Origin: a virus
Direction: 5' to 3' (one strand)
DNA length: 64,000 bases
IMG/VR virus record: IMGVR_UViG_3300044799_000154
Coordinates: 57,518-121,517 of that record
This document shows positions 7,058 through 59,858 of this stretch, piece by piece. Under the pieces are notes generated by a model. The model had not been told where the DNA came from. It saw nothing but the letters and a program-made list of their open reading frames with translations, and did not search any database. Position numbers and translations under genes: made by a program. Numbering within the stretch: position 1 is the first letter of the stretch; every line of letters starts with the position of its first letter.

Positions 7058-7058
7058 A

Positions 7059-10503: not shown

Positions 10504-10525
10504 AAGTATATAGGTGTGAATCAAG

Positions 10526-13033: not shown

Positions 13034-13037
13034 TAAA

Positions 13038-15544: not shown

Positions 15545-15556
15545 GGAGAAAAAAGT

Positions 15557-15940: not shown

Positions 15941-16428
15941 GAATCAAAATATTAGAGTCTGGAGATGAAGAATTGTTCTTGGAGTTCTTACAGTGGTTAA
16001 CACCAGAATCATTGAATCTTTGGTATCCATATGGAAAGACCTTTGATCCAAGTAAAGCAAAAGAGATCTTAGCAAGACCAGATGAATTAAGAATTGCAGG
16101 GATTGATATAGTGAAGAAAGATGTATCTCTAAGCTATTCGGAGTCACCAGAGAAAGAACGAATTGTTGTTTATGGACACTTGTATCATTTCACTGATGAT
16201 TCATGCAGACTAGGAATAATCTCTGGCATAACTGGGAAAGGATATGGAACTCAAATGATGAAGATTCTAATTAACTATGCAAAGTCCTCTGGTGTTAAAA
16301 GACTTCTACTCTCAGTCGATCAAAACAATTATCCAGCATTAGCTTTGTACAAGAAGTTTAATTTCAAAATCATTCAAACATTCACAGACAAACTTAGACC
16401 TAGATTCGAAATGGAGAAAGACCTATGA
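15937..16428 (+). CDS. GNAT N-acetyltransferase
   Basis: A 163-residue GNAT-fold protein. The acetyl-CoA-binding loop is in GITGKGYGTQMMKILINYA (the G-x-G-x-G/A pattern of motif A), followed by the strand VKRLLLSVDQNNYPALALYKKFNF, the usual motif B. Family members transfer acetyl from CoA to an amine. With the DegT aminotransferase upstream, the likely substrate is a nucleotide-linked amino sugar, but protein or small-molecule acetylation is not excluded. It overlaps both neighbours by ATGA. Confidence 0.87.
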   Translation: MRIKILESGDEELFLEFLQWLTPESLNLWYPYGKTFDPSKAKEILARPDELRIAGIDIVKKDVSLSYSESPEKERIVVYGHLYHFTDDSCRLGIISGITGKGYGTQMMKILINYAKSSGVKRLLLSVDQNNYPALALYKKFNFKIIQTFTDKLRPRFEMEKDL

Positions 16429-18379: not shown

Positions 18380-18391
18380 AGAGGAAAGAAT

Positions 18392-19369: not shown

Positions 19370-19372
19370 AAT

Positions 19373-20290
19373 ATGAAAATTTTAATGAAAGGATTTGTTC
19401 ACCAAGTATTCCTTCAAAGTCTAACAGAAACATTCAGCAAAGATTCTTTCTATCTAACAAATAGAATCTATCATCCTAAATATCCTGATAACTACTTCCC
19501 TAAACCTTCTCCTAATGTTAGAGTTATTCCAGAAATTCAAGATCTAAAAGAATTAGATGATTATGATATCTTCATTGGAGTTTTTGGAGGACGAGTAATG
19601 GAGGATACTAAAGATTGGAAGATTCCTACTGTCTGGAGAACGTATGTCCCTATTTCTCAGAATTGGCAGTACCTAAGAGGAGCACCAGTAGTTTACAATG
19701 CATCAATTTCTAAGAATGTTACTCTTGGAGCTTCTAAAATGCAGAAAGTATATTCTTCAAATCTTGATGGACCTTATAGTTATGATTATAGAGATCCTAA
19801 AGTCTACTGCTCATGGAATGGAAATATTGAGAAAGGTATGGTTGTTGGAGTAGCAGCAGGTCTAGGATATGGTAGAGATCTTTGTGAGGAAATCAAGAAA
19901 ACAATTCCAATTGATGTTATTGAGAATGTACCCTATTGGTATCTTGTTGAAGCTTTTAAGGACCATCGAGTCTATCTAGAAGTGAACAAGACTTCAAGAG
20001 TCATTAGTGCAGCATTCACAGAAGCTATGCTTACTGGAACTCCTATCGTGTCAAATAGAGTAGGTGAATTCAAAGAATTAATAGAGCATGGGAAGAATGG
20101 TTTCCTAAATGCTAAATCTCATGATCCCCAAGATATGGTGGAATATGCCTCACAATTATTACAAGACAAAAAATTAGCTAAAAAGATAAGCCAAGAAGAA
20201 CGCAAAAGAGCACTAGAATTGTTCAGCAAAAAAAGAGTGAAAGAATCATTTGAAAGTGCATTTAAATATACTAAGGATGGGAAATGGTAA
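19373..20290 (+). CDS. Glycosyltransferase-like protein, paralogue family of five
   Basis: A 305-residue member of the paralogue family. MKILMKGFVHQVFLQSLTE aligns with the start of the next protein (MKILMKGPQVHPSYLNSLTQ), and YDYRDPKVYCSWNGN plus RVYLEVNKTSRVISAAFTEA and TGTPIVSNRVGEF align with the donor half. The C-terminal helix (AKKISQEERKRALELF) is the usual GT4 closing segment. It ends immediately before the next start codon. Substrate unknown. Confidence 0.78.
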   Translation: MKILMKGFVHQVFLQSLTETFSKDSFYLTNRIYHPKYPDNYFPKPSPNVRVIPEIQDLKELDDYDIFIGVFGGRVMEDTKDWKIPTVWRTYVPISQNWQYLRGAPVVYNASISKNVTLGASKMQKVYSSNLDGPYSYDYRDPKVYCSWNGNIEKGMVVGVAAGLGYGRDLCEEIKKTIPIDVIENVPYWYLVEAFKDHRVYLEVNKTSRVISAAFTEAMLTGTPIVSNRVGEFKELIEHGKNGFLNAKSHDPQDMVEYASQLLQDKKLAKKISQEERKRALELFSKKRVKESFESAFKYTKDGKW

Positions 20291-21274
20291 ATGAAGATTT
20301 TAATGAAAGGACCTCAAGTTCATCCCTCATACTTGAATAGTTTGACACAAGTTTTCCCAGAACATACTTTTCATTTAACTGGTTATAAAGATCGGATTAC
20401 TCAAGAGTTAAAATTAACCGACTTCACTTATTTGTATCCAATGCAACCAAATGTGAAGATTGAAATTCCCTGGGATGAACTATTACAGATCAAAGATTGG
20501 CAAGACAATTATGATCTATTTATAGGAGATACAGAAGGAACTCAACCAAAAGAATTGGAAAAATATACTATCATTCCTAAAGTCTGGAGAACTTTCTCTA
20601 TTCTTGATTTCAGTAAAGTACCAATACTAGGTGGACCAGTTGTATTCAATTCTTATACTTCTAGGAATTTTGCTGTTAGAGAATGTAGGAAGCATGAAGT
20701 TCTAACTAGAGATATGGGCAAATATGTTGCTTATGATTATAAGAATCCTTCTGTCTATAAAGGATGGACAGGAGACAATCCTAATCCTCTAATAGTAACT
20801 CATAACTTCTTTACTAGAGGAGCAGTAGGAAATGAACTATATGCAAAATTAGATCCAAAGATAAAATCAAATGTTAGAGTAATAGATGGCAATCTTCATT
20901 TCGAAGATCTATTGAAAGCTTATAGAGAACATAGAGTTCTGTTAGAATTAACTCAAGGAGGAAGATTGATTACTGGAACTATAATGGAAGGGATGATGAC
21001 AGGAATGCCAGTAATAGCTACTTCAGAAGCTGATTTCCCAATGTTTGTTAGACCATGGATTGAAGGATTTCTTTCAGATGATCCAGCCAGAATCTCTCAT
21101 TTTTCAGATTTCCTATCATATGATTTTATTACTGCTCAAGATATGGGACATAATGCTAGAATGCGAGCTTTAGAACTTTGTAGTTATTCTTCTATTCGAG
21201 CAGTGTGGGAAGATGCTATCCATGAAGTTACCAAAGCAGGACCTTGGAGTGAAGTAGGTAGGATGTGGGGCTAA
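20291..21274 (+). CDS. Glycosyltransferase-like protein, paralogue family of five
   Basis: A 327-residue member of the paralogue family, beginning at the base after the preceding stop. Shared blocks are MKILMKGPQVHPSYL, YDYKNPSVYKGWTGDN, RVLLELTQGGRLITGTIMEG and TGMPVIATSEADFP. It is closest in layout to 18392-19369. The hinge phrase 'YRDP/YKNP..YKGWTG' seems specific to this set. Cytoplasmic. Probably adds one sugar of a larger glycan, with each copy having a different linkage; this is inference from the number of copies. Confidence 0.78.
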   Translation: MKILMKGPQVHPSYLNSLTQVFPEHTFHLTGYKDRITQELKLTDFTYLYPMQPNVKIEIPWDELLQIKDWQDNYDLFIGDTEGTQPKELEKYTIIPKVWRTFSILDFSKVPILGGPVVFNSYTSRNFAVRECRKHEVLTRDMGKYVAYDYKNPSVYKGWTGDNPNPLIVTHNFFTRGAVGNELYAKLDPKIKSNVRVIDGNLHFEDLLKAYREHRVLLELTQGGRLITGTIMEGMMTGMPVIATSEADFPMFVRPWIEGFLSDDPARISHFSDFLSYDFITAQDMGHNARMRALELCSYSSIRAVWEDAIHEVTKAGPWSEVGRMWG

Positions 21275-21886
21275 ATGGAAGACTTTACCAAATATTCTAA
21301 GAATGATCCTCAGAATAGAATGAAGGTTCTTTCTCCAACCAGAATAGACTTTACTGCACATGATGAGATTTCATATATGTGGAAAGAAATAGATTCTAAG
21401 AAATCTTTGAACTTGATAACTAAAGTAAAAGTAAAGCCTAGAATTGGAGCAGGATTCTCATTGTTAATCTTCTATAGTTTAGCCAATGAACTTCAATATG
21501 GAAAGTATTTCAGAGATCAGAAAAAGAAATGCATATGGATCTGCTTTGAGACTGTACAAGGAAAACCTAGATTAGCAATATACTATGAAGGAGATCAAGG
21601 AGCACAACATAATGGTCCTCTCCTTTCATGGAATAAAATCTATTCGATAACAATTGTTAGAAGTCCTCAGGATCTTTCATTGGAAGCACTTGATGAAGAA
21701 GGAAAGAATGTAAGTTCTCTAAAAGTTAGATTGGAAGATTCACCTAAGTTCCAATACTTCTTTATATGCAACAATTGGTTTTTCAATGATTCAAAGGAAC
21801 CAATGTGGTTCAGAGGAGAAATATTAGACTTGGAATTTGCAGAGGAAGTTGAAAAGAAAAGTTTCTTTAGGAGTTTGAGATCATGA
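21275..21886 (+). CDS. Beta-sandwich protein, LamG-like, unknown role
   Basis: A 203-residue protein that starts directly after the preceding stop and overlaps the next gene by ATGA. Alternating hydrophobic strands (GFSLLIFYS, KCIWICFETVQG, RLAIYYEG, YSITIVRS, FQYFFICNNWFF, GEILDLEF) suggest a concanavalin/LamG-like beta-sandwich. It has no catalytic residues I can identify. Set among glycosyltransferases, it might bind a glycan or act as an accessory carbohydrate-binding subunit, but that is only contextual. Confidence 0.55.
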   Translation: MEDFTKYSKNDPQNRMKVLSPTRIDFTAHDEISYMWKEIDSKKSLNLITKVKVKPRIGAGFSLLIFYSLANELQYGKYFRDQKKKCIWICFETVQGKPRLAIYYEGDQGAQHNGPLLSWNKIYSITIVRSPQDLSLEALDEEGKNVSSLKVRLEDSPKFQYFFICNNWFFNDSKEPMWFRGEILDLEFAEEVEKKSFFRSLRS

Positions 21887-22767
21887 AAATAGTTTTCTTC
21901 CAATGGGGTCCACACCATCAAGCAACTTGGGAATATCTTTTTAGTCAATTAGAACTGAAAGGTTTTAATCCCATAAATCATAGTGGACAAGAGAATGGTA
22001 AGAAAATTGCTGATGATGCAGATATAGTCTTTATTACCTCTGATAGAGATCGTCCTATTAAGAATCCCAAAACCAAGACATGTTTTATAGGACACGGAAT
22101 GGGTTTGGAAAGTTGGGATCCTGGAATGAACACGGATGATCGTGTATTTCTTGCGGGAAAAAAACCTTGGACTCCGCCTCTAGATGCTTCAAATTGGAGA
22201 ATGGTTGGTTGGAGTAAATCTGATGTTCTATGGTATCCTGAAAAAGAAAAAGTAGATTATGTCAGAGACTTCATGGCTAAGTTTCCTTATGAGACTTCTA
22301 TCTTATTTGTTCCTCCTCAAGATAGAAATGATCTTCCTCATCTTGATTTCATAGTAGAATATGCAGATCAGCATAAGTATAACTTGATAGTTCCATTTAG
22401 GAAAAGAAGTCAAGCTTACAATATCGAAGAAGGAATTGCAAGATACAAAAAGTATGCTAATGTTCAATGCCCAGAGATCTTGAATCTATATTACTTCAAA
22501 CCTTATATCAAAATAGTAGCAATAATGGGTTTGTCTTCAGTTGGGAGAGAATTCTATCCAACTGGTCTTCCAACCTTACATGCTGGTTTTGGATTTGAAG
22601 AGTCTCATTTTAGTTATCCTATTGAAAGAGACTTTCCTAAGTTTCTAGAAGAAGCTATTATAGATCCAAAGAAATATCTACAACCACCTGAAGTAGTTAG
22701 AAGCTTTCATGAAATCTGGGATGGAGAAGCTACAAAAAGAATAATAGCTGAAATAGAAAAAATGTAA
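21883..22767 (+). CDS. GT-B-like transferase, CDP-glycerol-transferase-like
   Basis: A 294-residue protein beginning MKIVFFQWGPHHQATWEYL. The segment TCFIGHGMGLESWDPG resembles the conserved 'HG' loop of CDP-glycerol glycerophosphotransferases and other GT-B polyol-phosphate enzymes, and HAGFGFEESHFSYPIE occupies the place of the donor-site motif. It could be a polyol-phosphate or sugar transferase. It is the last gene of the glycan block. No clear terminator follows; 137 bases separate it from an HNH gene with its own promoter-like sequence. Confidence 0.6.
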   Translation: MKIVFFQWGPHHQATWEYLFSQLELKGFNPINHSGQENGKKIADDADIVFITSDRDRPIKNPKTKTCFIGHGMGLESWDPGMNTDDRVFLAGKKPWTPPLDASNWRMVGWSKSDVLWYPEKEKVDYVRDFMAKFPYETSILFVPPQDRNDLPHLDFIVEYADQHKYNLIVPFRKRSQAYNIEEGIARYKKYANVQCPEILNLYYFKPYIKIVAIMGLSSVGREFYPTGLPTLHAGFGFEESHFSYPIERDFPKFLEEAIIDPKKYLQPPEVVRSFHEIWDGEATKRIIAEIEKM

Positions 22768-22904: not shown

Positions 22905-23342
22905 ATGCCTTGGAGTAAAGAGAAACTTAAGGAGTATATGAAAAAGAAATATCATGAAGATTCTGATTATAGAGAAAAAGTGAAAAAGAAATCAAGAGAA
23001 AGACAAAGGAAGAACTATTATGACAAGAATCTTCGACCATATAGACAGAAGTTAAGAGCAGAAATTTTGGAACTTTTAGGAAACAAATGCAATAATTCAG
23101 GTTGTCTCATTCCAGGAGGTTGTAAAGACATTCGGTGTTTGGAAATTGATCATGTAAAAAATAATGGATATCTCCATAGAAAGAAATTTGGGGGTGTTCG
23201 TCTGAATTATACTAGTTATTTGATAGAAATTAGAAATGCAATTCTTCATGGTTCAAAAGATTATCAACTTTTGTGCTCAAACTGTAACAAGATAAAAGAA
23301 TTTGAAAGAATGGAAATTAAAAGAAAGCAAAGATTTCTTTAG
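22905..23342 (+). CDS. HNH endonuclease (homing type)
   Basis: A 145-residue, very basic protein, paralogous to 15557-15940. The core is CNNSGCLIPGGCKD, CLEIDHVKNNG and LLCSNCNKIKEF. The N-terminal 60 residues are lysine/arginine-rich and likely contact DNA. Unlike its relative it stands alone between the glycan block and the convergent junction, with its own TATA-like sequence and a gtgagg Shine-Dalgarno. It is probably a mobile endonuclease that inserted at the end of the operon. Confidence 0.85.
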   Translation: MPWSKEKLKEYMKKKYHEDSDYREKVKKKSRERQRKNYYDKNLRPYRQKLRAEILELLGNKCNNSGCLIPGGCKDIRCLEIDHVKNNGYLHRKKFGGVRLNYTSYLIEIRNAILHGSKDYQLLCSNCNKIKEFERMEIKRKQRFL

Positions 23343-44394: not shown

Positions 44395-45477
44395 CTACAG
44401 AGCTTTGTTAGCATCGAATTGGCAGTCATAGACGATGGCAATGCAATCAGCATTCACAACTTTCGGAGCAAACTCAAAGTAGAAGTAAAGTTCTACTGCG
44501 TCTGATCTTGGGTTGTCCCATCTCTTGAGATCTACATTCCTCTTGATTACGAGGTATGCAGCTCTTGTACTGTCAACACAGAATACTACACCAGCAGGAA
44601 TGTTTGTAGTTGCCAACAGCTTCATTGCACCAACCTTGCCAACTTCACCAGTCAACAGAGGTTCAGCAGATCCATACTGACTTGCGTCAATGAATCTAGC
44701 ATCCTTGATCAAATCAGCCATCTCTTCAGGGTTCAATACCATGAAGTTAGGTGACCATTTGTGACTTCGGATGAAAGTGCCCATAGCTGTAATGTCTTCA
44801 TACTTTAGAATCTTATCAGTTGTAGAATCAATTGCTCCTCTTGCAGTTCCAGCTACAGTATACCAGTACTTGAAGTGAAGATTATCTCCACCCAGGTTCT
44901 CGGCAATCTGTACTTTTCCAGCAAGGTAATCAACACCTTCTACTGTGACATTTGCAGCAGCATCATTCTTTGCTGTCAGCCATGTCAAAACTAATGGATG
45001 TGCTAAAGTATAAACATTGTGTGCAGCAGCACCCGCAATCACTTGAGTTACTTCAACTTTACCCAAGAATTCCCAGACTATTTCCTGGTCTTCTAGGTCA
45101 GCCAAAGCTTCACCCGCTTCTCGGATGTGGTCTCTTATCAGGTCAAACTCTGAAGCATCAAGTGCTTCTTGAGTCAACGCAGCATAAGACACAACCTTGA
45201 ATGGAGTGATTTCAATTGTGGTATATGCAGGTGATGTTCCATCGGCAAAAGCATTCAATTCAGTGCCTTCAGCCACACGAGCAGCAGACATGATTGTTCT
45301 CTTTGGAACATGGATAGATCGACCTTGCTTTCCAACAAGATCTGCATTTATCTTTACCAAAGCACGACCAAATCTACGAGCTCTTGCAGCCTCTTCTACC
45401 TCTGATATGATTATCTTTGGTAGGATTGCTGTAATGTCGCCTGTAGTCATCTTTGCTAGTTCTTCTAATGTTTTCAT
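44395..45477 (-). CDS. Major capsid protein, HK97 fold
   Basis: A 360-residue protein, the usual length for HK97-like capsids. The helix-rich N-terminus (ITAILPKIIISEVEEAARARRFGRA), the strand RSIHVPKRT, the long helix REAGEALADLEDQEI and the P-domain block KWSPNFMVLNPEEMADLIKDARF match this fold. The ATG at 45477 is chosen because gaggag lies seven bases upstream; an in-frame TTG at 45492 overlaps that site. It is the product acted on by the upstream protease. Both a promoter-like sequence and a terminator surround it, fitting high expression. Confidence 0.85.
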   Translation of the reverse strand: MKTLEELAKMTTGDITAILPKIIISEVEEAARARRFGRALVKINADLVGKQGRSIHVPKRTIMSAARVAEGTELNAFADGTSPAYTTIEITPFKVVSYAALTQEALDASEFDLIRDHIREAGEALADLEDQEIVWEFLGKVEVTQVIAGAAAHNVYTLAHPLVLTWLTAKNDAAANVTVEGVDYLAGKVQIAENLGGDNLHFKYWYTVAGTARGAIDSTTDKILKYEDITAMGTFIRSHKWSPNFMVLNPEEMADLIKDARFIDASQYGSAEPLLTGEVGKVGAMKLLATTNIPAGVVFCVDSTRAAYLVIKRNVDLKRWDNPRSDAVELYFYFEFAPKVVNADCIAIVYDCQFDANKAL

Positions 45478-45549: not shown

Positions 45550-45912
45550 TCACTCAGAGTCAGATTGATAGCTTCCAGGTTCCATTCTGGGACCTTTCTT
45601 AATGAGGTCATGTTCAATAGCTATTTTAACAGCTTCTCCAACAGATATCTTGCCTTTAAGATCTTCTGGATTGCTATAGCCAACTCGACTCTTGGGTTTG
45701 GGTCTTTCCTCGGTAGTTGCAGTCAACTGCTCGGGATTCTTACCCATCCTCAATACATTTTCAGAGAGAGTTGCATATCTCTCTTTCCATGAATTGAGTT
45801 CAGATCTGATAGATCCGAGTTCTATTTCTAGGGCAATCTTTTGATCTGTGAGTTCATCTAATTTCTTTGATAGAGCAATTATTCTTTTATCTGACTCAGA
45901 TTGTTCTGTCAT
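45550..45912 (-). CDS. Coiled-coil protein, possible scaffold or head protein
   Basis: A 120-residue protein. The N-terminal half is a predicted coiled coil (DKRIIALSKKLDELTDQKIALEIELG and SELNSWKERYATLSENVL), and the C-terminus is Pro/Gly-rich with ISVGEAVKIAIEHDLI. It overlaps the end of the capsid protease by four bases (ATGA) and precedes the capsid gene, a typical scaffold position. It could work with, or instead of, the Pro/Glu/Lys-rich tail of the protease. Confidence 0.6.
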   Translation of the reverse strand: MTEQSESDKRIIALSKKLDELTDQKIALEIELGSIRSELNSWKERYATLSENVLRMGKNPEQLTATTEERPKPKSRVGYSNPEDLKGKISVGEAVKIAIEHDLIKKGPRMEPGSYQSDSE

Positions 45913-46343
45913 TGTTTTGACCTCTTGCTATCCAACCATTTCTCTAAGATAACCCGCTTGGCTTCTGGATGTTCTTTCAGAGCTTGTAGCAGTTGTTCCT
46001 CGGTCATAGGAACCTCTTTTGGAGCTTCTATGATCTTAGGCTCTTCAACCTTTGGTGCTTCAGCCTTAGGAGCTTCAACCTTAGGTTCCTCTTTTGGTAG
46101 TTCTCTAATACTTGGAACTATCACTATTGGAATCTCAAATGGTTTTTGCTCTACCTTAGGTTCCTCTTTAGGAGCTTCAACCTTAGGTACTTCTACCTTT
46201 GGCTCTTCCTTTGGAGCTTCGACCTTTGGTGCTTCAACAACCTTAGGTGCCTCTTCTTTAGGAGCTTCAACTTTTGGAGCTTCTACTTTGGGCTCTTCTT
46301 TCTTCACCTCAGCAACCTTGGGTTCTTCTTTCTTTTCCGACAT
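45909..46343 (-). CDS. Internal start in the capsid protease: candidate scaffold protein
   Basis: In the 3' part of the protease gene an ATG at 46343 (residue 580) follows a strong Shine-Dalgarno (aaggagggaaaggaaat). Translation from it gives a 144-residue, Lys/Glu/Pro/Val/Ala-rich protein with about a dozen EEPKVEAP-like repeats and a helical C-terminus. Nested in-frame scaffold genes inside the protease gene are known from lambda (C/Nu3). The internal site is seen here; the use of it is inference. Confidence 0.55.
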   Translation of the reverse strand: MSEKKEEPKVAEVKKEEPKVEAPKVEAPKEEAPKVVEAPKVEAPKEEPKVEVPKVEAPKEEPKVEQKPFEIPIVIVPSIRELPKEEPKVEAPKAEAPKVEEPKIIEAPKEVPMTEEQLLQALKEHPEAKRVILEKWLDSKRSKQ

Positions 46344-48080
46344 TATTTCCTTTCCCTCCTTCAAATTTATACCATCTTTAGGTGGCATACCATATTCAGG
46401 TGACTGATCAGGTTTGGGTTTGTATTGACCATATTTTTCAACATGAGTGTCCATCCAATGTTTGTTGAAGATCACTTCATCAGTAAACTTCTCTCCACAT
46501 ACTGGACAAACTATTTGATCAGCAGCCTTCTCTTCTTTACCACCAGTCTTGACAAATTTCTTAGCCTCTGCTTGAGTATCAAAGACTTTAACTATTTTCC
46601 ACAAGCCTTCTTCAGGAACTTCGAAAACAGTGTATTTCTCAGTACCCTTATTAAAAACAACCTTTAGTACACCTTTCTTCAGGTCATCAGATTGCTTCTC
46701 ATATTTCGGGTAATAAGGATAGTATGGGTAATAAGGATAATATTGTTCACCATAGTATGGATAATACCCATAACCTTGCTTTTCAGCAGGAGTGTACTTT
46801 CCATATTTCTCCATGTGATCCTTACTCCAATGCTTTATGAAGTCTTTGAAGTTTGAGAACTTAGCACCACATGCTTTACACACGATACTATCTTCCATCT
46901 CTTCAAAAGGATCCTCATCAGATTTCTTCTCGGGCTTGGGATAAGCTTTGTATTTCTTATACTTATATGGATAATATCCATATGGAGAATATGCATACTT
47001 GTATCCTTTGAGTTTCTTAGTGCTCTCAGGAAGTTTACACATTCTTCTAAGATCATCCAATTCAGCCTCTGATTGTAATGGAACCTCTTCAAGATATTCT
47101 CCTTCTTCAACTAGAGCTACAACAAATGGAATGTCAGACTGAGCTACTGGTTTCTTATATTTCTTGTATTTGTAAGGATAGTAACCAGGGTAATTACCAT
47201 AACCATAATGTGGGTAATAACCATAGCCATAATATGGATAACCATCTAGTTTAGGATAACCATAATAGTATCCATAGACTTTCTTATTCTTTCTAAGTTC
47301 TTCCAATTGCTCTTCAGAACTTAATTCCATGAGCTCTAGATCTTCATTGTCTTCTACCCAAGCAAGGATAATTGGTCCTTCCTCTTCAGAGATTTCTAGG
47401 TTAGGAGCAGAGTTTTCTTCTTTTTCCATTTTATTTTCGCCTACTATACTTTCTTTCTTTTCTACTTTTAAATCTTTCTCCATTCTTGATAATTTCTCGC
47501 AATGGAATATAAAACAGCGATCACAGGCAGGATTTGATACTAATGAGAGTTCAGCAAACTTGAAATCAAGACCCATTTTGATTCCCTCTTGACCAATTGG
47601 AATCTTATCCATCCAAGTAGACATAGATACAGCTTTGAACCTACCTGCATTAACATAATCAATAGCTTTTTGATCTGTTAATCTAGCCTTAAATTTCAAA
47701 GCTTTAAGAAGTTCATCCCATAGAGCTTCTATGACTTCTCCAACAGTTCGATCTCCAAATTCTTTATCTTGACCATGTTCGATCTTTAAAGGTTTACCAA
47801 TTAGTTGATCAGCAGCTTTCTTGATCTCTTCTGAAGAATAAACAACATTCTTCCAGATACCTTCAGCTAAAGCAACACCAGTAACTAAAAGACCTTTATC
47901 TTCAAGAACAGTAAAAAAATCAAAAGCTAGTTCTTCTTGGACAGATTCAGGCTTAACAGTGTTCTTAAGATTCTCTATCTCAAGTTTCCTAGCCTGGAGA
48001 TCTTGTTCTAATTGTTCAATCTCAGCTTCCAAGATTTCCTGGATGCCTGATTGATCTTCGATAGTTTCCATTTTCTTCAC
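45909..48080 (-). CDS. Prohead protease fused to Tyr-rich repeats, two zinc fingers and a scaffold-like tail
   Basis: A 723-residue multidomain protein. A coiled coil (1-45) leads to an S78-like prohead protease (50-195) with His102 in KIEHGQD and Ser152 in AVSMSTW, the expected dyad. Then follow two similar acidic-plus-YGYYPYKYKKYK units (235-310 and 317-380), C2H2 fingers CKACG...HWSKDH (Cys401, Cys404, His417, His422) and CPVCG...HWMDTH (Cys525, Cys528, His541, His546), another Tyr/Pro-rich segment at 435-460, and a Lys/Glu/Pro repeat tail from 580. The protease is expected to trim the capsid and this tail. Compared with usual proteases (200-350 residues), the insertions are very large. 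It overlaps the next gene by four bases. Confidence 0.8.
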   Translation of the reverse strand: MKKMETIEDQSGIQEILEAEIEQLEQDLQARKLEIENLKNTVKPESVQEELAFDFFTVLEDKGLLVTGVALAEGIWKNVVYSSEEIKKAADQLIGKPLKIEHGQDKEFGDRTVGEVIEALWDELLKALKFKARLTDQKAIDYVNAGRFKAVSMSTWMDKIPIGQEGIKMGLDFKFAELSLVSNPACDRCFIFHCEKLSRMEKDLKVEKKESIVGENKMEKEENSAPNLEISEEEGPIILAWVEDNEDLELMELSSEEQLEELRKNKKVYGYYYGYPKLDGYPYYGYGYYPHYGYGNYPGYYPYKYKKYKKPVAQSDIPFVVALVEEGEYLEEVPLQSEAELDDLRRMCKLPESTKKLKGYKYAYSPYGYYPYKYKKYKAYPKPEKKSDEDPFEEMEDSIVCKACGAKFSNFKDFIKHWSKDHMEKYGKYTPAEKQGYGYYPYYGEQYYPYYPYYPYYPKYEKQSDDLKKGVLKVVFNKGTEKYTVFEVPEEGLWKIVKVFDTQAEAKKFVKTGGKEEKAADQIVCPVCGEKFTDEVIFNKHWMDTHVEKYGQYKPKPDQSPEYGMPPKDGINLKEGKEIMSEKKEEPKVAEVKKEEPKVEAPKVEAPKEEAPKVVEAPKVEAPKEEPKVEVPKVEAPKEEPKVEQKPFEIPIVIVPSIRELPKEEPKVEAPKAEAPKVEEPKIIEAPKEVPMTEEQLLQALKEHPEAKRVILEKWLDSKRSKQ

Positions 48081-50248: not shown

Positions 50249-52447
50249 TTAATCTTTTCCTTTCTTTATCATTTCTTGAGTCCATGTATGAAGGTTATTA
50301 TCTTTGATCCATTTGGTAGCAGTCTCTATTGGAGCATCACCTTTAAACTTAACTTGGGATACTCTTGCCCAATGGAAAGTACCTGGCTTTGGATATAGAC
50401 ATACAAGGATATCTTCCACATAATCTGGAATGCTAAGATCTGGGAAGTAAGTTTTATAATCAGACTCACATCTAGTGAATGTCCTCATGTCATAAAGATG
50501 AAGCCAATAGTAATCCCATCCTTTCTTCTGTCCTTGAATGAATGGATCATAATAGTCTCCTTTGACTGGGTCTCCACTTAAAGTCTGAGCTTCAGGTAAT
50601 TTAGATTTTATAAAGAACCAATCTCCTTCAGGGGATTTTTTCAGGACCCAGTATCCTTTTATTTTGTCTCCATAGAGTTTCATTGACATGAATCCACCAG
50701 TTTGCTCAATGATATCTATCTTACCATGATCTAAGACATCAACAAAAGTTTCCAAAGATCCTACCTTTCTAGGAAGCTTTTGTCCTTCGGTCATAAACCA
50801 ATCTTTGGGATTATTACATGTCTTTAGAAGTCCTGGTATCGGGTCTCCAGTATTAGCTTCAAGAGGATTCTTCCATAGGTTCCATTCTACTAGAACTTTG
50901 GGATTCTCAGTTATCTTCACTCTAATATCCCAATGTTGTTTATTATCCCAATAATGTCGATGAAGTACAAACTCTCCAGATGCTAGAGAACTTTGTTCTT
51001 TAGCTTTCCAAGAATACATGTTTGCTCCTTTCTCTTCTTGGATTAAATCATAGTTTCCTTTCATGATCTTACCATGAAGCTTCAAATGATAGATCTTTCT
51101 ATTCTGATCATCAGTTTCTAGTTCAACAGTAGCAGAACCAGAATCAAAGTTCCTCATTGTAGCAATCAATGTCTTCGTTGGATTATACATTTCTCCTGGA
51201 TGTATCTTACCTTCCCATGTCATCCATTTCTTATTCACTTTGCCTTCATACATTGCTCCTAGTTCATTAACTCTAGCTGGATCACCATCCAGATACCAGG
51301 AGTCTACTCCAGTAGTTTGAAGACGGAAAAAGAACTCTACATGAGGTACTGCTCTAACAACTACTTGTCCCATATAAGTATTAACTTGAAGATTGAATTT
51401 AGCACCAGCTAATGGATTTACAGGTTCTTTCATTTCAAAATCTTCACATGCTGGTTCTTCAATAGATAGATCTTTGATACAATGCATACAATGAATACAT
51501 TCTTCACATGTAAAATCATCTAAGATCTCACCTGTTTTTCTAGCAATCACAGCACAATAAGCGGATGCTCTCTTTTCATCCCAACCTTTCTTTTCCATGA
51601 TCTGTTTTACACAATCTTTGAAATTCTTATAACCAGCAAATGGAAGTCCTTCTAATTCTCTAAGACTTTCTTTAGTTAGACTCTTACCTTCCATGTATGC
51701 TTGCCATTTATCCCAGAGTTCTCCAGATCTCTGATCAGGTGGAATTGGAATAACACCTTTTGGAGGTTTCCAACCTTTCTTTATTCCTCGTTGTAAAGCA
51801 TAAGCTATTTGGTTGCCAGGAATCATGCATTTCCACATGTATTCTGTTTGACCCTTAATTGGTTTCTTAGTGACTGGATCTATCTTAGGGACTTGAACTC
51901 CTCTGAAGACAACACGAGCCCATTTACCTTTTGGAAGGAAGTTACCTACGTCAGTCTTCAGGAAGTATTCATGGAAATAAGATTTCTGAGTTCCTTCCCA
52001 GAACACGCCATGCTCAATAATGTCTACCACTCCAGTCTCTTCTTTAGTAGCTCCTACCTCTCCAGGCTTAACTACACCATTAACTTTCAACCATTCTTTT
52101 GGCTGTCTAGCTTTTGTTTCTGCTCTCAATCCTTTATTCTTCTTTGTGAAATCAAAAGCCCAATCCAATTTCTTTATCTGAGCTTCAGCTTCAGGCATAG
52201 TTGTTACCTCAGGAGTTCCAGAAGGATTATCTAAGATCGTCCATCCAACAAGGTGATTATTCATTTCCATTCTGAAATCTTTGTGAACAGAAGCTCCTCT
52301 CCAATGATGCTGCATGACAAATCTTCGTTTACATCCTGAAGGAGGATATTCCATGTATTGAGAGACACCTGTAACTTGTAATTCTTCCTGGAATATTCCT
52401 AGTTCTTCTAAGAACTTAGGATCAATCATTTCACGAGTTATTTTCAT
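50249..52447 (-). CDS. Tandem LigD-type 3'-phosphoesterase protein
   Basis: A 732-residue protein with two copies of a LigD phosphoesterase-like domain. Copy 1 (about 40-205) has RFVMQHHWRGASVHKDFRME and VVDIIEHGVFWEG; copy 2 (about 490-650) has EFVLHRHYWDNKQHWDIRV and VDVLDHGKIDIIEQ with an LYGDKIKGYWVLK strand. In LigD the conserved His-rich motif (FxxQxH...HxDFR) removes 3' ribonucleotides or phosphates before ligation. The first copy retains HxDFR; the second is degenerate (HWDIR). Between them lies GYKNFKDCVKQIMEKKGWDEKRAS, a segment common in phage structural proteins, and a Cys cluster (CEECIHCMHC). It is two bases from the ligase gene, forming a probable repair pair. Confidence 0.75.
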   Translation of the reverse strand: MKITREMIDPKFLEELGIFQEELQVTGVSQYMEYPPSGCKRRFVMQHHWRGASVHKDFRMEMNNHLVGWTILDNPSGTPEVTTMPEAEAQIKKLDWAFDFTKKNKGLRAETKARQPKEWLKVNGVVKPGEVGATKEETGVVDIIEHGVFWEGTQKSYFHEYFLKTDVGNFLPKGKWARVVFRGVQVPKIDPVTKKPIKGQTEYMWKCMIPGNQIAYALQRGIKKGWKPPKGVIPIPPDQRSGELWDKWQAYMEGKSLTKESLRELEGLPFAGYKNFKDCVKQIMEKKGWDEKRASAYCAVIARKTGEILDDFTCEECIHCMHCIKDLSIEEPACEDFEMKEPVNPLAGAKFNLQVNTYMGQVVVRAVPHVEFFFRLQTTGVDSWYLDGDPARVNELGAMYEGKVNKKWMTWEGKIHPGEMYNPTKTLIATMRNFDSGSATVELETDDQNRKIYHLKLHGKIMKGNYDLIQEEKGANMYSWKAKEQSSLASGEFVLHRHYWDNKQHWDIRVKITENPKVLVEWNLWKNPLEANTGDPIPGLLKTCNNPKDWFMTEGQKLPRKVGSLETFVDVLDHGKIDIIEQTGGFMSMKLYGDKIKGYWVLKKSPEGDWFFIKSKLPEAQTLSGDPVKGDYYDPFIQGQKKGWDYYWLHLYDMRTFTRCESDYKTYFPDLSIPDYVEDILVCLYPKPGTFHWARVSQVKFKGDAPIETATKWIKDNNLHTWTQEMIKKGKD

Positions 52448-52449
52448 AA

Positions 52450-55398
52450 TTATTCACCTATCTTCTTACAGGGACATTCTTCATCCCTTTGTGTCTCTTC
52501 ATCAGTTTCTGGATCAACCAAGTAGTCGTAATAGTAAGGCTTGACATATCTACATTTCCAGTAATAAGCTAATGAACAAGCAACTGGGAATTTAAGATAC
52601 ATTCTCTTAGATAAATCATCCATGGTTCTAGCAAATCTAGGTTTCATAGGGCATACTTTTAGATCCTCATAAAATGGACATGTTGGAAGTTGGACTACTT
52701 CTTCAGCTAGAGTACTCAATGGAGCAGTTCCTGCTACTATTAATTTCTTAACTACATCCAACCCATCAGGTTCACTCTTGTTTGGATTTCTAGCTTTGAC
52801 AGTTGGAAACATCCATGTCCAATAAATTCTTCCTTTCTCTTCGAATTGAGCAACTCTAATTGGTCTAATTGCTAGGATATCTCCCTTTCCACATTTGACA
52901 GCAGAAGCATAACTTCTTCCAATAAGATAATAACATTTTCCTTTCCATTCTTTGAAGCCATCTTCTTTGATCTTATCTTTCATTCCACAAGGAACAGAGA
53001 TAACACAATCATACATATATTGCCCTGGAATAATCTGACCTGTTTTTGACTCTTTCTTAGGAATAACTTCCCAGACCATTACATCAATTTCTTTGACATT
53101 CTTTATCTTAGCCCAATCAGTAGTTCTACCAGTCAACTTGTAGATAGAATCTGCTTGCTTGAGCATTGCTCCTTCAGAACCTCTGATCCTTCTGACCTTA
53201 GCTAGAGTTCTATCAAACTCTCTCTTATCATGAACCTCATAACCTGGAACTGCTTTGAAATGATATGTTCCTGATGGAATTATTTTATCAACAGCAGTTA
53301 ATCTCTCAGTATATCCTTTCTGAGTCATATCTTGCCCATCATACATCATACAATCATGAACATGGAAAACAATATCTTCATCATCAAGCTTCATTTTTGT
53401 AGAAGTAATCCAAGGAATCATTTCTTCTCTTGGACGAGGTTGACAGAAAGCTTCTTTATCTTTAGTATCTTTACCTTGACAATTATACCAGACCATCTCA
53501 GTATCAATAATGAAATTATCAGCTTTGAAATGCTTAACCAATTCTTCTACTGATTTCTTAAAGACATCTGCTCGATCTCTCTGTCTATCTTCTGTAAAGA
53601 ACCAGATCTTGTCTCCCTTTCTATGGATTTGAATTCTCATACCATCAAATTTCTTCTGCATCACTATACCTTTCTCAATTCTAGATGCAGCCCAATTATT
53701 CCACAATGGAACTGGATCAAAGAATTCAAATTTGTCAAATCCTGTACCTGATTTCAAAGATCTAATAGGTTTTCCCAAAGCTATATCGGAAAGATATTCC
53801 CAAGGAGAATGTTTACCCCATTCATTTGGAGGCACTCTAACATAAGCTAATCTGTAGATAGGCATTGAATATCCTACCTGTGGACCATGAGGATCAAAGA
53901 CCCAGTGAATCCTATTTGCAACTTCAGGATCTCTTGCTCGAATTGCAGTAGTTAAAGCGGTCATCAATCTCTTATCTGGAAATGATTGTTTTACCAATAC
54001 ATCTATGTCATGACCTGGTTGAGAAAGATCTTTATTAACAGTGCTTCCACAAACATGAATATGAGCTGGAGGGTCCATAAGAATGATCTGCTCTGGAAAT
54101 GCACTTAGAATTCTAAGAACTGGAAGATCTTGGAAATTAGCAGGAATGTTTTCATCAACTTTATCTTTAGAAGCAAATCCTCTTGGTGTTGGATATTCTA
54201 CTACATCTAAAGCTGTAGCATCTGTCAATGGATCTTCAATGGTATGACGAATATTTCTATGCACCATTTCTGACCAAACAAAGATATGAGCATTGCTTAA
54301 AGGCTCAGTAATCTTACTCTGTTCTCGATAGATAGCATGAAGTCGTTTATCCAAAGATACAAGATCTTTGTCACTAAGTTTTCTAGAATAAATATCATCT
54401 ATTGCTTCAAGATCTTTGAACTCTATCTTTGAGACATCTATCAATAGTTCTTCCTCAATTGAAGAAAGAGTTTCAAAGAATTCTTCAAAAGTAGCTTCAC
54501 CTTCAACATTACTCAATGAACTCGATTCTTTCAAAGGAGTATAATTCCAGCCCATCTTCTTGAAAGCTTCAAGAATGTTGTTATCAAGTCCTTTTACTAT
54601 TTTTTTCTGCTCTTCTAGAGTATAATCTTTGAATTGTGGACTCATCATTCTTTTACCAGATTGGAGAAGATTCCACCAAGCATGAACTATTCTATGATCA
54701 TCCAAGACTACTTTCCTTCCACGAGGAGTCTTTATCAATTCCATTGCATCATAAGTCTTCCAATCTCTAATCAAGAATTCCTCTATTCTATCCAAGAAGT
54801 CTAAATAAGGATGTGTCATATTTCTATCTGAAAATTCTTTAGTTATTAGAGCATGAAGTTCTGTATCTCTGACTAAATGAGAATGAGCATGAAGTCTTAA
54901 AATTGCTCCCATTGGAAGTTCCTTCATTTTCTCAAATTTGATATTCTTAGCATCTATCCAATTCTGTGTTCCCTTTGGAAGAGTAACTACAGTGGGAGGT
55001 TTAAATCGTTCTACCATCTTGACAGGATAAAAATATAGTGGACCTTTACACCAGGCTTTGTAAACTTTGCACCATTTCTCTCTTGTCTTCTCTGAGATTC
55101 TGTGCTTGGGCTCTAATTGATGAAAATCTTTTATTGAGATTTCTATAGGTTCTCCTATACGCATAGTTCCATAACACAATCCATGTCCCAAGAGATAAAC
55201 AGGTTCATCTGGATTTACATCATATTTCTTTGACTTACAAAAAGCGGTCTTAAATCCTGTAGATATCCAGTGAGCATGAGGCTCTATCAAATACAAACCA
55301 GTCCTCGGAGCAGTCTCTACTTTCTTGATAAAAATCTTTGGAACAATTGGTTGAATATCAACAGTTGTAATAGCTGTATTATTTTCTTTCTCTGGCAT
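52450..55398 (-). CDS. ATP-dependent DNA ligase with N-terminal nucleotidyltransferase domain
   Basis: A 982-residue protein. Residues 1-240 (HAHWISTGFKTAF, LRLHAHSHLVRDTELH) are a domain I do not recognise. About 430-510 has the Pol-beta nucleotidyltransferase signature: HVCGSTVNKDLSQPGHDIDV with Asp464 and Asp466, and Asp502 downstream. The ligase begins near 560: MQKKFDGMRIQIHR (Lys583 adenylation, motif I), FIIDTEMVW (III), EGAMLKQADSIYK (IV) and TTDWAKIKNV (V). The C-terminus has four more Cys and CPCKK. A ligase fused to a nucleotidyltransferase, near a phosphoesterase, recalls the LigD set used in end joining, but here a Pol-beta-type fold replaces the primase-type one. Its place in the late operon is unusual. 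Confidence 0.85.
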   Translation of the reverse strand: MPEKENNTAITTVDIQPIVPKIFIKKVETAPRTGLYLIEPHAHWISTGFKTAFCKSKKYDVNPDEPVYLLGHGLCYGTMRIGEPIEISIKDFHQLEPKHRISEKTREKWCKVYKAWCKGPLYFYPVKMVERFKPPTVVTLPKGTQNWIDAKNIKFEKMKELPMGAILRLHAHSHLVRDTELHALITKEFSDRNMTHPYLDFLDRIEEFLIRDWKTYDAMELIKTPRGRKVVLDDHRIVHAWWNLLQSGKRMMSPQFKDYTLEEQKKIVKGLDNNILEAFKKMGWNYTPLKESSSLSNVEGEATFEEFFETLSSIEEELLIDVSKIEFKDLEAIDDIYSRKLSDKDLVSLDKRLHAIYREQSKITEPLSNAHIFVWSEMVHRNIRHTIEDPLTDATALDVVEYPTPRGFASKDKVDENIPANFQDLPVLRILSAFPEQIILMDPPAHIHVCGSTVNKDLSQPGHDIDVLVKQSFPDKRLMTALTTAIRARDPEVANRIHWVFDPHGPQVGYSMPIYRLAYVRVPPNEWGKHSPWEYLSDIALGKPIRSLKSGTGFDKFEFFDPVPLWNNWAASRIEKGIVMQKKFDGMRIQIHRKGDKIWFFTEDRQRDRADVFKKSVEELVKHFKADNFIIDTEMVWYNCQGKDTKDKEAFCQPRPREEMIPWITSTKMKLDDEDIVFHVHDCMMYDGQDMTQKGYTERLTAVDKIIPSGTYHFKAVPGYEVHDKREFDRTLAKVRRIRGSEGAMLKQADSIYKLTGRTTDWAKIKNVKEIDVMVWEVIPKKESKTGQIIPGQYMYDCVISVPCGMKDKIKEDGFKEWKGKCYYLIGRSYASAVKCGKGDILAIRPIRVAQFEEKGRIYWTWMFPTVKARNPNKSEPDGLDVVKKLIVAGTAPLSTLAEEVVQLPTCPFYEDLKVCPMKPRFARTMDDLSKRMYLKFPVACSLAYYWKCRYVKPYYYDYLVDPETDEETQRDEECPCKKIGE

Positions 55399-55834: not shown

Positions 55835-56266
55835 TTAGGAAAGGAGGACCTTAAGATAATCATTGCTATCTCTTCCAAGATACTCTATAGCTTTTTCTAA
55901 GATTAGAATTGAATCTCCAGATAGACCTATCATGAAATTACATTTATTGCAAAGAAGACCTCTAATTTTCTTAGTTTCATGGTTATGGTCTATAGATGGT
56001 TCTTTAAAAGGTTTAAATTTCTCATTGCAAATAGCACATCTATTATCTTGAAGTTCAAGCATAGAATCATAATCTTCCTTAGTAATATTATAAGGCTTCA
56101 ATCTTTGAACATTCTTCCAATATTTTCTTTGATATTCATTTATTGCGTCTTTTCTTTCAGCTCTCTTTTTCATAATTTCTTCCTTGTGTTCCTTGAAGCG
56201 TATTTTAGCTTGAAGAAGCTTATGTTCTCTGTGGTCTTGATAATATTCTGATTCACTTCTAACCAT
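55835..56266 (-). CDS. Endonuclease VII-type HNH nuclease
   Basis: A 143-residue protein with the endonuclease VII pattern: RCAICNEKFKPF, SIDHNHETKKIRGLLCNKCNFMIG, where DHNH and the two CxxC knuckles form the zinc-supported active site. The N-terminal 60 residues are a basic coiled coil. It can act as a resolvase or a homing endonuclease. It stands alone between the LonB and DUF2153-like genes, with flanking gaps, which suggests an inserted mobile gene. Confidence 0.85.
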   Translation of the reverse strand: MVRSESEYYQDHREHKLLQAKIRFKEHKEEIMKKRAERKDAINEYQRKYWKNVQRLKPYNITKEDYDSMLELQDNRCAICNEKFKPFKEPSIDHNHETKKIRGLLCNKCNFMIGLSGDSILILEKAIEYLGRDSNDYLKVLLS

Positions 56267-56283: not shown

Positions 56284-58458
56284 TTATTGAAGAAGCACTC
56301 GAAGATAATCATCCAAAGTCTTCCCTGGTCTCACGACCACTTTAAAGTCTGTGGGCTCTATTGAAAATTGATAGTTTTTATCAGGAATCACTACTTCCTT
56401 GAAGTTCCAACTTTCAGCAGCTTTGATTTTCTCATATAATCCACCAACAGCAGTGATCTCTATCTCATTATCTGAAGATATATTTATCTCTCCAGTCACA
56501 GCAACATCTTGTCTAATTGGTTTCTTCTCTAACAGAGAACACAAAGCAAGAGTCATTGTAACACCAGCAGAGGGACCATCTACTGCATAAGACTGAGAAA
56601 AGTCTATGTGAGTACAATAATCTTTAGATACATCTGCACCATATTTCTTCAGGATTACAGATCTTACCTTAGATATTGACCCAGGCATGTATAAAGCATC
56701 TTTTGGAACACCAGTTACTTTGAAATATCCGCAGTCTTTCTTAGCTTTTATCATTTGTGCTTTTATTCTTAAGACTGATCCGACAGATTCTCCTGAGAGT
56801 GGATCGGAAGATACTGCCAAACCATAGATTACTCCTAATTTCTTTCCAGATGGTTTAATCTCCAAGAACTTGTTTTCTTCCTGGATATAGTTCTCCAAGA
56901 TTTGTTTCTGAATGGTCTTACAATGTTCCTCGATAGCTTCCCTTACACGCTTACCAGATACTTCTGTCTCTCCTGCATTCATAGCCAAGACAGATGCTGT
57001 TTTTAGGATTGATATCAAAGGTCTGAACTTAGCTGTTAAAGTGTCTCTTTTATCAGACTTTCTTCTAGCTTCTTCAATCACTTCAATGCAAGCATCTCTT
57101 GTGAAGGGCATTAGATTGAATCTATTAATTTCCTGAGCAATGAATTGGACATACTTTCTTCTGCTTTCATCCGTATTTGGAAAATCATTGTTCATTCTAA
57201 CTACTTTTCCATATCCATAGATACGATCCATCAAAGCAGGATGTATCTGACAAATAGAATCAAAGTTTCCTGCTCCTACAAGAAAAGTAACACATGGAAT
57301 TGGTTCAGTAGATACAGCCATTGCAGAAGTATCTCCACCATGAAGTTGAGATCTTAGAGCAATTGGTAGTTGACCATCTTCTAAAACTGATAACAAAGTT
57401 ATTGCCTCGGCTGGCATCAAGTTCTTCAATTCATCTATGTATAGAATTCCCAGATTAGCTCTATGAACATCTCCAGCAGATACTCTTTGATGTTCTGGAG
57501 TTCCAAGTCCACCTGTCTGATATGGATCCCAAGCTATTGATCCAAAGAGTTGTGAAGAACCATGTCCAGTTGCATCAATGAACTGAGCTATTTGTTGAGA
57601 GTTATCAATCAACATCTTAGGAGCATCAGTATTCTCTGAACCACCGATTCCTTTCATTCCACCCTGGGATCCCAAAAACTTAAATAGATAACTTATGAAG
57701 ATACTTGAGAATAACAAAGATCCTCCAGCCATTAACAAGAAAGCAGTATCTGGTAATGCAGCCATAAAGTACTGGAAGAAGTTTCCATCGTATAAAATTT
57801 GAAGAGGAACACCATATCCTGTCATTTGATTGGTAGCCCAAGGCATGGTAATAGTATACAAAGCACAGAAGAGTAATAGGAGTCCCAATCCAGCACACAA
57901 CCATTTAACTGAACTAATTCCCAAGCTTTTCTTCCAAGCTTGTCTCTCTACTTTCTGTCTCTCTTTTATAACAAAATCTTTTCCTTTTGGTGATGGATGT
58001 ATTGAGATTCTAGGTTCACTAGGAATTGTCTTATTTTTCCAAGATAGAACATCATACATCTTTACATTGTTTTCTCTATAAAGGTCAGTAAGTTTCTCAG
58101 CAAGAGCTCTACCTATCAGAGACTTTCCTGTTCCTGGATCACCTAGCAAGAATAAATAAGGACCAGGGGAAAGTTTCTTCTTAACTGTTGGCTTAACATT
58201 CTCTGGATTCTCCCAATCCTTCCACCAATGATCTTTATCTAAGTTCTTGAGTTTGTGTACCCATTCATCAAGACATAAGTAACATTCTTTCATTGCCTGG
58301 TCTTGACCTATGACCCAGTCTAGAAGTTTAGTAGAAAGAGGGAATCCTTCAGTAGAATGAAAATCTTTCCAATCCCATTCTACTTCTGGACAATTAGCCC
58401 ACTTTATCTTTGACTTTCCTTTGCCGAAGTATTTTTCTTTTCTTTCTTGTTCAGACAT
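56284..58458 (-). CDS. lonB: Archaeal LonB-type membrane protease
   Basis: A 724-residue ATP-dependent protease. Walker A GDPGTGKS is at residues 106-113, and after two membrane segments (LGLLLLFCALYTIT near 200 and SLLFSSIFISYLFKFLG near 250) comes Walker B ILYIDELKNL. Membrane segments between Walker A and B are the archaeal LonB layout. The C-terminal protease domain has VDGPSAGVTM (catalytic Ser) and GGLYEKIKAAES (catalytic Lys). It overlaps the portal gene by 55 bases with a gaggaagga ribosome site, so it is translated in the late operon. It may turn over a host protein or process head proteins at the membrane. Confidence 0.92.
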   Translation of the reverse strand: MSEQERKEKYFGKGKSKIKWANCPEVEWDWKDFHSTEGFPLSTKLLDWVIGQDQAMKECYLCLDEWVHKLKNLDKDHWWKDWENPENVKPTVKKKLSPGPYLFLLGDPGTGKSLIGRALAEKLTDLYRENNVKMYDVLSWKNKTIPSEPRISIHPSPKGKDFVIKERQKVERQAWKKSLGISSVKWLCAGLGLLLLFCALYTITMPWATNQMTGYGVPLQILYDGNFFQYFMAALPDTAFLLMAGGSLLFSSIFISYLFKFLGSQGGMKGIGGSENTDAPKMLIDNSQQIAQFIDATGHGSSQLFGSIAWDPYQTGGLGTPEHQRVSAGDVHRANLGILYIDELKNLMPAEAITLLSVLEDGQLPIALRSQLHGGDTSAMAVSTEPIPCVTFLVGAGNFDSICQIHPALMDRIYGYGKVVRMNNDFPNTDESRRKYVQFIAQEINRFNLMPFTRDACIEVIEEARRKSDKRDTLTAKFRPLISILKTASVLAMNAGETEVSGKRVREAIEEHCKTIQKQILENYIQEENKFLEIKPSGKKLGVIYGLAVSSDPLSGESVGSVLRIKAQMIKAKKDCGYFKVTGVPKDALYMPGSISKVRSVILKKYGADVSKDYCTHIDFSQSYAVDGPSAGVTMTLALCSLLEKKPIRQDVAVTGEINISSDNEIEITAVGGLYEKIKAAESWNFKEVVIPDKNYQFSIEPTDFKVVVRPGKTLDDYLRVLLQ

Positions 58459-59858
58459 TCTAATCCTTCCTCTTTACTTAATCCCTCTTTTGTTTTGGGA
58501 CAATTCTGACAATACTTGAATAGTTCACTCAAAGGTATGTTCTTTTCTTTTCTTATTGGACACTCAATATCTTCTTGATAAACACAATTGATGGCTTGTA
58601 CTTTGTCCTTACTCTCATCTTCTAAGAGTGGCAAACCAAGTTCTCCTCTCAATTTGTTTTCCAAAGACCTATCCACATGGAGAACTCCTTTCTCAGTTAG
58701 CATTGAGATTGATCTCATTCTAAGCATCTGAGTCTCAGGAGAAGATTCTCCAAACTCTACCTCTGGAATGCTTTGTAGTTTTTTCTGGATTCTCACTTCG
58801 GCTAGGAGTTGTTCATCCAGTTCAGCTTTAATTTCCTCTGTGTACATCTTAGCTGCTTTTTCAAAATCAATATTAGAAAATGTTGCACCACCTTTGCTCT
58901 CTGTGGATCCCGATGGTACTATGAATCCAACTGGATTATCCAATGCTCTAGCTATTTCTCCTGCTAAGAAAGCCCATAGATCAACTATAGGTGCCAAAGG
59001 AGTCTTGCTTTCTAATCTTCCTGGTTTTATCCAGACAGGAAGTATAAGTTCCTCAGCACTCTCTAAGTTCTTGAGAATTTTCTTTGCTTCAGCGATCAAA
59101 GGTGCATCAATAGGATGATTTAAATCACCAATGTTGAAGTATATAATTGGAAATCCATGTCTATACAGAGCTTCTCCATAAGCCTCTTCCAAGTTCATTC
59201 TAATCCAGGATGCCTTGAACGCAGGTTCTAATGGAGATATTCCTAGGCATTCAACTCCCAAAGTAAAGAAGTTCATTAGAACTACATCTTTCATTGGAAG
59301 ATCAATGCTATCACTATTTACTGTTTGTACCAATCCAACAGGGTTCAAATTGTCATCTAACAATATTTTTCCATCTCTATCTTTCTGCCAATCCACAGTC
59401 TTTGGATCTACAATGACAAGCTGAACTATGTTACCCTTTGAATCTCGGACCTTTTCAATAACAGAATATCCATAAATGATAATATCCAAAATAGCTTCCC
59501 AAAGTACTTTCTTCAAGTTCACAGTTCGAGCCCAAGCTTCCATAGCAGTACGATCTTGCTCAACTCCACCTGAGAAGTAAACTCTTGGAGAAGCTATAGC
59601 TCTCCTAAGACGGTTTACACCAGCGAAGATGAGTGGATCCATTCTATAAAGAAGCTCTGCTTTCTTTTGAACTTGAGTTTCTTTCTTTAATCTCTCAGTA
59701 TCTCCCTTACTCTTCCTAGTTCTAGTAATTGCCACTAGGTCTGACAATGACAATTCAACTTTTTCAGGTGGGATGTCACTTGGTCTGCTTCGTCTCAAAG
59801 CATCATAAAGTTTTCTTACTCTAGATCTTGAATCATCTTTTGGTGCTTCATTAGTCAT
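58404..59858 (-). CDS. Portal protein
   Basis: A 484-residue portal. PLIFAGVNRLRRAIASPRVYF, VLWEAILDIIIYGYSVIEKV, VDPKTVDWQKDRDGKI and DVVLMNFFTLG are characteristic of the portal family, as is the helix-rich LAGEIARALDNPVGFIVP segment. The C-terminus adds a Cys4 module, C-x7-C-P-x15-C-x2-C-P (from INCVYQ to QNCPKT), with the same spacing as the 66-residue protein at 1090. Late gene order (portal, then protease and capsid) fits. It overlaps the downstream LonB start by 55 bases. Confidence 0.9.
   Translation of the reverse strand: MTNEAPKDDSRSRVRKLYDALRRSRPSDIPPEKVELSLSDLVAITRTRKSKGDTERLKKETQVQKKAELLYRMDPLIFAGVNRLRRAIASPRVYFSGGVEQDRTAMEAWARTVNLKKVLWEAILDIIIYGYSVIEKVRDSKGNIVQLVIVDPKTVDWQKDRDGKILLDDNLNPVGLVQTVNSDSIDLPMKDVVLMNFFTLGVECLGISPLEPAFKASWIRMNLEEAYGEALYRHGFPIIYFNIGDLNHPIDAPLIAEAKKILKNLESAEELILPVWIKPGRLESKTPLAPIVDLWAFLAGEIARALDNPVGFIVPSGSTESKGGATFSNIDFEKAAKMYTEEIKAELDEQLLAEVRIQKKLQSIPEVEFGESSPETQMLRMRSISMLTEKGVLHVDRSLENKLRGELGLPLLEDESKDKVQAINCVYQEDIECPIRKEKNIPLSELFKYCQNCPKTKEGLSKEEGLECLNKKEKKNTSAKESQR

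Follow-up and report, generated by a model that had tools for sequence, protein, structure and literature searches.

Scaffold proteins are missing from mature virions and diverge fast, and the origin of the capsid assembly shared by tailed viruses and herpesviruses is therefore known mainly through protein folds. In lambda, the scaffold Nu3 is nested in frame within the gene of the protease C, which is of the ClpP/SppA type and differs from the gp21/assemblin fold; as far as we know, Nu3 is not Tyr-rich and has no zinc fingers. In T4, the scaffold gp22 is a separate gene product. To our knowledge, neither zinc fingers nor repeated Tyr modules occur in herpesvirus scaffolds. The nested scaffold of herpesviruses holds the major capsid protein (MCP) via its C-terminus, and this protease-less form is in excess (PMC12474303). 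Furthermore, the peptide PYYPGEA of the HSV-1 scaffold docks between portal subunits (PMC12282113), and a C-Nu3-portal complex of lambda has been described (PMC3224144).

The gene described here likely joins a capsid-maturation protease and its assembly scaffold in one reading frame, with probably two or three co-terminal products made from nested starts that we infer. It resembles UL26/UL26.5 in having (i) an N-terminal assemblin-fold protease, (ii) a long low-complexity scaffold part, (iii) a short C-terminal element and (iv) a candidate in-frame nested product, the latter being also what it shares with lambda C/Nu3. However, it has no sequence similarity with the herpesvirus system outside the fold. 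Moreover, HSV infects eukaryotes and makes its nested product from the overlapping gene UL26.5, whereas internal ribosome-binding sites are proposed here. T4 gp21, the top structural match of the protease, differs by the lack of a fused Tyr-rich body. ORF20 of the haloarchaeal virus HJTV-4 (OP374082.1) shows weak similarity in the protease domain (29%, E 6e-3), belongs to a head gene cluster and also has a long extension after the protease, but this extension is acidic, of halophilic type, and contains no Tyr runs, C2H2 fingers or CPxG motifs. Protease-scaffold fusions are a known kind of protein; the repeat body is what is unusual.

The window, i.e. the whole stretch of 64,000 nucleotides that was analysed, comes from a virus record of 121,517 bases, and the gene is encoded on its minus strand (Table 1). 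All the elements listed in the initial annotation were found, but the start that it gave (48080, 723 residues) has to be moved. Indeed, the GTG at 48080 belongs to the Shine-Dalgarno (SD) sequence AGGTGA. Since this GTG sits within the ribosome-binding site, the start is the downstream ATG, as in the closest relatives. From the N-terminus, a helix and the protease are followed by acidic module 1 with a Tyr run and acidic module 2 with a Tyr/Lys run; then come finger 1, Tyr/Pro run 3, module 3, finger 2, the Glu/Pro/Lys tail and a short charged end. The same gene is carried by two independent contigs, L001 (94% identical) and L002 (80%), and an assembly error, which the initial annotation had named as a possible source of this arrangement, was rejected on these grounds.

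Table 1. Features of the protease-scaffold gene and of its neighbours. Positions are those of the window; residues are numbered throughout on the 723-residue ORF, in which the ATG at 48071 is residue 4.
Feature	Coordinates	Strand	Basis or remark
Protease-scaffold gene	45909..48071	minus	ORF; 720 aa from ATG 48071; SD AGGTGA 5 nt upstream; L001 and L002 start alike
N-terminal helix, residues 11-41, ahead of protease	47958..48050	minus	AlphaFold model (numbered 8-38 there)
Protease domain, residues 55-198, assemblin/gp21 fold	47487..47918	minus	pLDDT mostly about 90; structural Z scores
Predicted catalytic His102 (EHG)	47775..47777	minus	Invariant, 14 sequences
Predicted catalytic Ser152 (AVS)	47625..47627	minus	Invariant, 14 sequences
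Predicted third catalytic residue Glu177 (ELSL)	47550..47552	minus	Invariant, 14 sequences
Candidate internal start Met218, just past protease	47427..47429	minus	Met position in 15/15 loci
Acidic module 1, residues 235-268, predicted strand-helix-strand (low confidence)	47277..47378	minus	Structure model
Tyr/Pro/Gly run 1, residues 269-312, 43% Tyr, ends YPYKYKKYK	47145..47276	minus	Composition
Acidic module 2, residues 313-357	47010..47144	minus	Composition/alignment
Tyr/Lys run 2 with YPYKYKKYK, residues 358-384, 37% Tyr	46929..47009	minus	Composition
C2H2 finger 1, C401-H422	46815..46880	minus	Ligands kept in L001, L002, L021, L022; dN/dS 0.03 vs L002
Tyr/Pro run 3 with PYYPYYPYYP, residues 426-465	46686..46805	minus	Composition
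Small module 3, residues 466-515, predicted strands and helix	46536..46685	minus	Alignment/model; relatives in L011, L021, L022
C2H2 finger 2, C525-H546	46443..46508	minus	Alignment of ligands
AGGAGG, SD-like site for tail	46355..46360	minus	dG -11.1; same signal leads the stand-alone tail genes of L021, L022
Scaffold-like tail, residues 580-723, Glu/Pro/Lys/Val-rich, candidate internal start Met580	45912..46343	minus	Separate ORFs in L021, L022
Candidate MCP-binding element at the C-terminus, residues 691-723, likely helical	45912..46010	minus	C-termini compared
120-aa ORF, coiled-coil-like N-terminus, start overlaps protease-scaffold stop	45550..45912	minus	Counterparts in L012, L021, L022
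HK97-fold major capsid protein	44395..45477	minus	Above cut-off for PF25209 and PF05065; 4e-14 for PHROG major head protein

The AlphaFold model of the protease was built from 14 sequences and is confident in its core. Using model residues 52-195, the best structural match was T4 gp21 (5jbl_A, Z 11.7, 123 residues, 2.8 A), followed by the herpesvirus proteases, or assemblins (Z 8-11), while unrelated MCE-domain proteins formed a background below both (Z 6-7). Foldseek by itself gave the Epstein-Barr virus (EBV) protease at E 1e-3 amid MCE/MlaD noise, and this was resolved by a second look with VIA-align. The predicted catalytic His, Ser and Glu are invariant, unlike Ser154, which is absent from L020. 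The Ser-to-Glu spacing is 25 residues in the window protease, and the Ser and the second His of the human cytomegalovirus protease are separated by the same distance. PHROG families of head maturation proteases were weakly matched by 9/14 and 8/14 members, and DUF2213 was weakly matched among the Pfam results of the 14 members. Pfam Peptidase_S78 (PF04586) was matched neither in the record nor by these members, and assignment to S78 was rejected because its cut-off was not reached. A sequence search of the PDB with the protease profile matched nothing meaningful. The domain is under purifying constraint, with dN/dS of 0.06-0.14. The identity proposed in the initial annotation is thus supported: from its modelled fold and conserved residues, the domain is predicted to be a capsid protease of the assemblin/T4-gp21 fold.

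Profile searches of viral contigs from many metagenomes retrieved the protease with Tyr-rich modules at 15 distinct loci, window counted, the Tyr runs being only traces in L020 and L021. Hence, the middle of the protein is a conserved trait and not an assembly error, and the same middle does exist in other viruses, where the initial annotation had suggested looking for it. The proteases of L021 and L022 are about half identical to that of the window, and both proteins retain the two fingers with all four ligands. Four further contigs (L003, L005, L006 and L007) were set aside since their matches were confined to low complexity or to the Glu/Pro/Lys tail. Among cultured viruses, none of the 50,697 phage records searched gave a useful match, whether the query was the protease domain, the finger region, or the protein of L018 or L022. 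Moreover, we did not find the combination of a protease with this middle described in the literature, and a paper on Bathyarchaeia viruses held nothing matching the gene. Therefore, the earlier statement that no described capsid protease has such a middle held in the phage-record, PHROG, Pfam and literature searches.

A nested scaffold is indicated by two relatives in which the tail is an ORF of its own (L021:7620-8129 and L022:7851-8354), located after a stop that follows the finger region. In both, AGGAGG precedes the ATG, by 8 nt in L021 and 11 nt in L022. At the corresponding point within the fused frame, the window has AGGAGG, 11 nt and the ATG of Met580, and this is the strongest SD ahead of any in-frame start beyond residue 30 in the window, L001 and L002. 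The short charged C-termini are similar in fused proteins and separate tail ORFs, with a basic end in most loci. An internal start of translation at Met580 is thus likely, as judged from these signals. A second start, at Met218, is plausible. A Met is found 16-26 residues past the protease at all 15 loci although conservation of the linker around it is low. Most loci have an SD-like sequence for this Met; it is strong in L002, L011, L012, L014 and L033 and weak in the window (dG -5.0). Shuffling of synonymous codons revealed no overall extra DNA-level signal for this SD (p = 0.14). Together with the separate tail ORFs, the SD comparisons lend weight to the nested scaffold proposed in the initial annotation. 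The scaffold could instead be the 120-aa protein, with the middle and the long tail serving only as a tether of the protease inside the prohead. The coiled-coil-like ORF encoding it is indeed retained between protease and MCP in L001, L002, L012, L021 and L022, but this reading explains neither the strong start signal and independence of the tail nor the post-protease Met of all loci, and we consider it rather unlikely.

The two fingers have the identical spacing reported earlier, exactly C-x2-C-x12-H-x4-H, a motif that occurs nowhere else in window ORFs of at least 100 aa; only 1 of 20,000 shuffles of the protein yielded even one copy. The zinc ligands and one Phe are invariant across seven fingers. 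The window finger reaches 19.2 bits with zf-Di19, whose cut-off is 27.5, whereas the homologous fingers of L022 exceed Pfam cut-offs (zf-Di19 30.3, zf-C2H2_4 28.4), as do those of L021 for zf-met and jaz. Fingers are limited to two lineages, one with the window, L001 and L002 and the other with L021 and L022, that are separate in trees; parsimony requires two changes, and the fingers may have a single origin. At least one CPxGxxWDx5C motif is present in most members devoid of fingers. In L010:6001-8163 and L011:1887-3989, repeated CPxGxxWDx5CV motifs exceed the Pfam CBM_14 cut-off with half of the domain covered (51.1 bits in L010 for a cut-off of 22.1). A full CBM_14 chitin-binding domain was rejected for these two proteins, as the best stretch covers only ~24/53 positions and two Cys.

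Conserved fingers with every ligand retained, Pfam-level scores in L022 and the net positive charge of Tyr runs 1 and 2 (+5 and +6) could suggest that the middle acts as do the internal head proteins of T4-like phages: once cut off, it would stay in the virion, with its fingers and Lys/Tyr runs bound to the packaged DNA. However, the finger starts are 124 residues apart with no short linker, so that a tandem DNA-reading C2H2 array was rejected. Furthermore, most of the clade has no fingers, many members having the two-Cys motifs instead, and residues 218-579 are net negative (-9). An internal head protein is therefore quite improbable.

Both copies of the acidic segment with YPYKYKKYK announced by the initial annotation are present (235-309 and 316-377), and a third run, rich in Tyr and Pro, comes in addition. 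Each run contains 37-43% Tyr. The richest 60-aa stretch has 19 Tyr, while the next best in any window ORF of at least 100 aa has 10. Structure prediction of the parts, which had been advised, succeeded for the protease and failed to give a confident middle (mean pLDDT 43). Fold matches to the middle were left out as evidence because of this low value; they include a weak likeness of module 3 to HVO_2922 (6q2z, Z 4.3). Run lengths vary while composition is kept: L001 lacks 13 codons and run 3 of L002 is longer by about 17 residues. That the runs are a slippery low-complexity linker born from repeat expansion, with no specific binding role, would suit these length differences among near relatives and the scarcity of Tyr in L020 and L021, but it is very doubtful given that composition is retained across about 50% protease identity, that Tyr, Pro, Gly and Lys prevail instead of random linker residues and that run 1 has a dN/dS of 0.19-0.20 and run 3 one of 0.06.

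The Tyr-rich modules are clade-wide and the likely nested product includes them, so that the simplest view of the middle is that it forms the scaffold's own body. The earlier view of a foreign region lying between protease and scaffold is not supported. A protease fused to its scaffold would then act as follows. Two or three products would probably be made: the full-length protein with protease and scaffold, together with a scaffold that starts at Met218 and lacks the protease, a short tail that starts at Met580, or both. This scaffold would occupy the interior of the prohead, its conserved C-terminal segment gripping the MCP and the Pro/Glu/Lys tail serving as a flexible tether. The Tyr/Pro repeats, the small folded modules and the zinc fingers would form a core engaged in self-association and/or portal docking, in which fingers or two-Cys motifs would add rigidity or cross-links. 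The N-terminal protease, present in a minor fraction, would later cut the scaffold, opening the way to DNA entry.

By analogy, the Tyr/Pro middle may have a role in portal capture or self-association, a proposal open to testing. Like the PYYPGEA peptide of the HSV-1 scaffold, the middle contains Pro-Tyr-Tyr-Pro motifs, with three PYYP in the window and up to seven in L018; L011, L020, L021 and L022 have none. This likeness is chemical and is no evidence of descent, and composition may be its cause, as PYYP may arise easily within Tyr/Pro-rich sequence. Tyr runs that vary in length and conserve their composition, along with the constraint on finger 1, are more in keeping with multivalent stickers than with an exact catalytic or DNA-reading surface, as far as sequence comparison can tell. 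A sticker-and-spacer scaffold that nucleates and fills the proheads of this clade, with a condensate-like Tyr/Pro core made by self-association, a grip on the portal via PYYP and cross-links by fingers or two-Cys motifs, all in frame with the protease that destroys it, is a tentative and unlikely extension of this proposal.

The gene precedes that of the MCP in a head cluster that also includes, farther upstream, a portal-like ORF (58404-59858) with a weak match to TIGR01540 (E 0.001, below cut-off). The family B DNA polymerase is, among phage records, nearest to those of haloarchaeal tailed viruses (27%), the Lon-like protease is nearest to the LonB model TIGR00764 with a score under the cut-off, and the ligase has its nearest match in ANMV-1, which infects an uncultured archaeon. 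Owing to these affinities, the host is likely archaeal. The LonB-like protease gene (56284-58458) adjoins the portal-like gene, and the head cluster contains a DNA ligase and a protein with a LigD-type 3'-phosphoesterase domain (50249-55398), a pair also found in L001, L002, L010, L012, L021 and L022. The ligase of L002 (L002:2-2917) is interrupted in frame by an intein-like insert (CFDQLTEILTKDGW...WSGN), which neither the window nor L001 has. The ligases of the finger-bearing L021 (L021:1548-4010) and L022 (L022:293-3829) also carry an N-terminal C2H2-like motif (CPFCSKIFDSIKILIAHLESKH; CPIDPEHGPFETEIALKKHLKKKH). By eye, a long run of genes at 5860-22767 of the window resembles glycosyltransferases and sugar-nucleotide enzymes, and two small ORFs (22905-23342 and 55835-56266) resemble HNH endonucleases; similar ORFs adjoin the head genes of L010 and L011.

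This gene, whose virus is probably archaeal, provides a parallel to UL26/UL26.5 that can be tested, as well as an unusual class of repeat scaffold. The split versions in L021 and L022, compared with the fused version of the window, show where the scaffold parts start. If the sticker-and-spacer reading were true, these viruses would have reached the same chemical solution as herpesvirus scaffolds.
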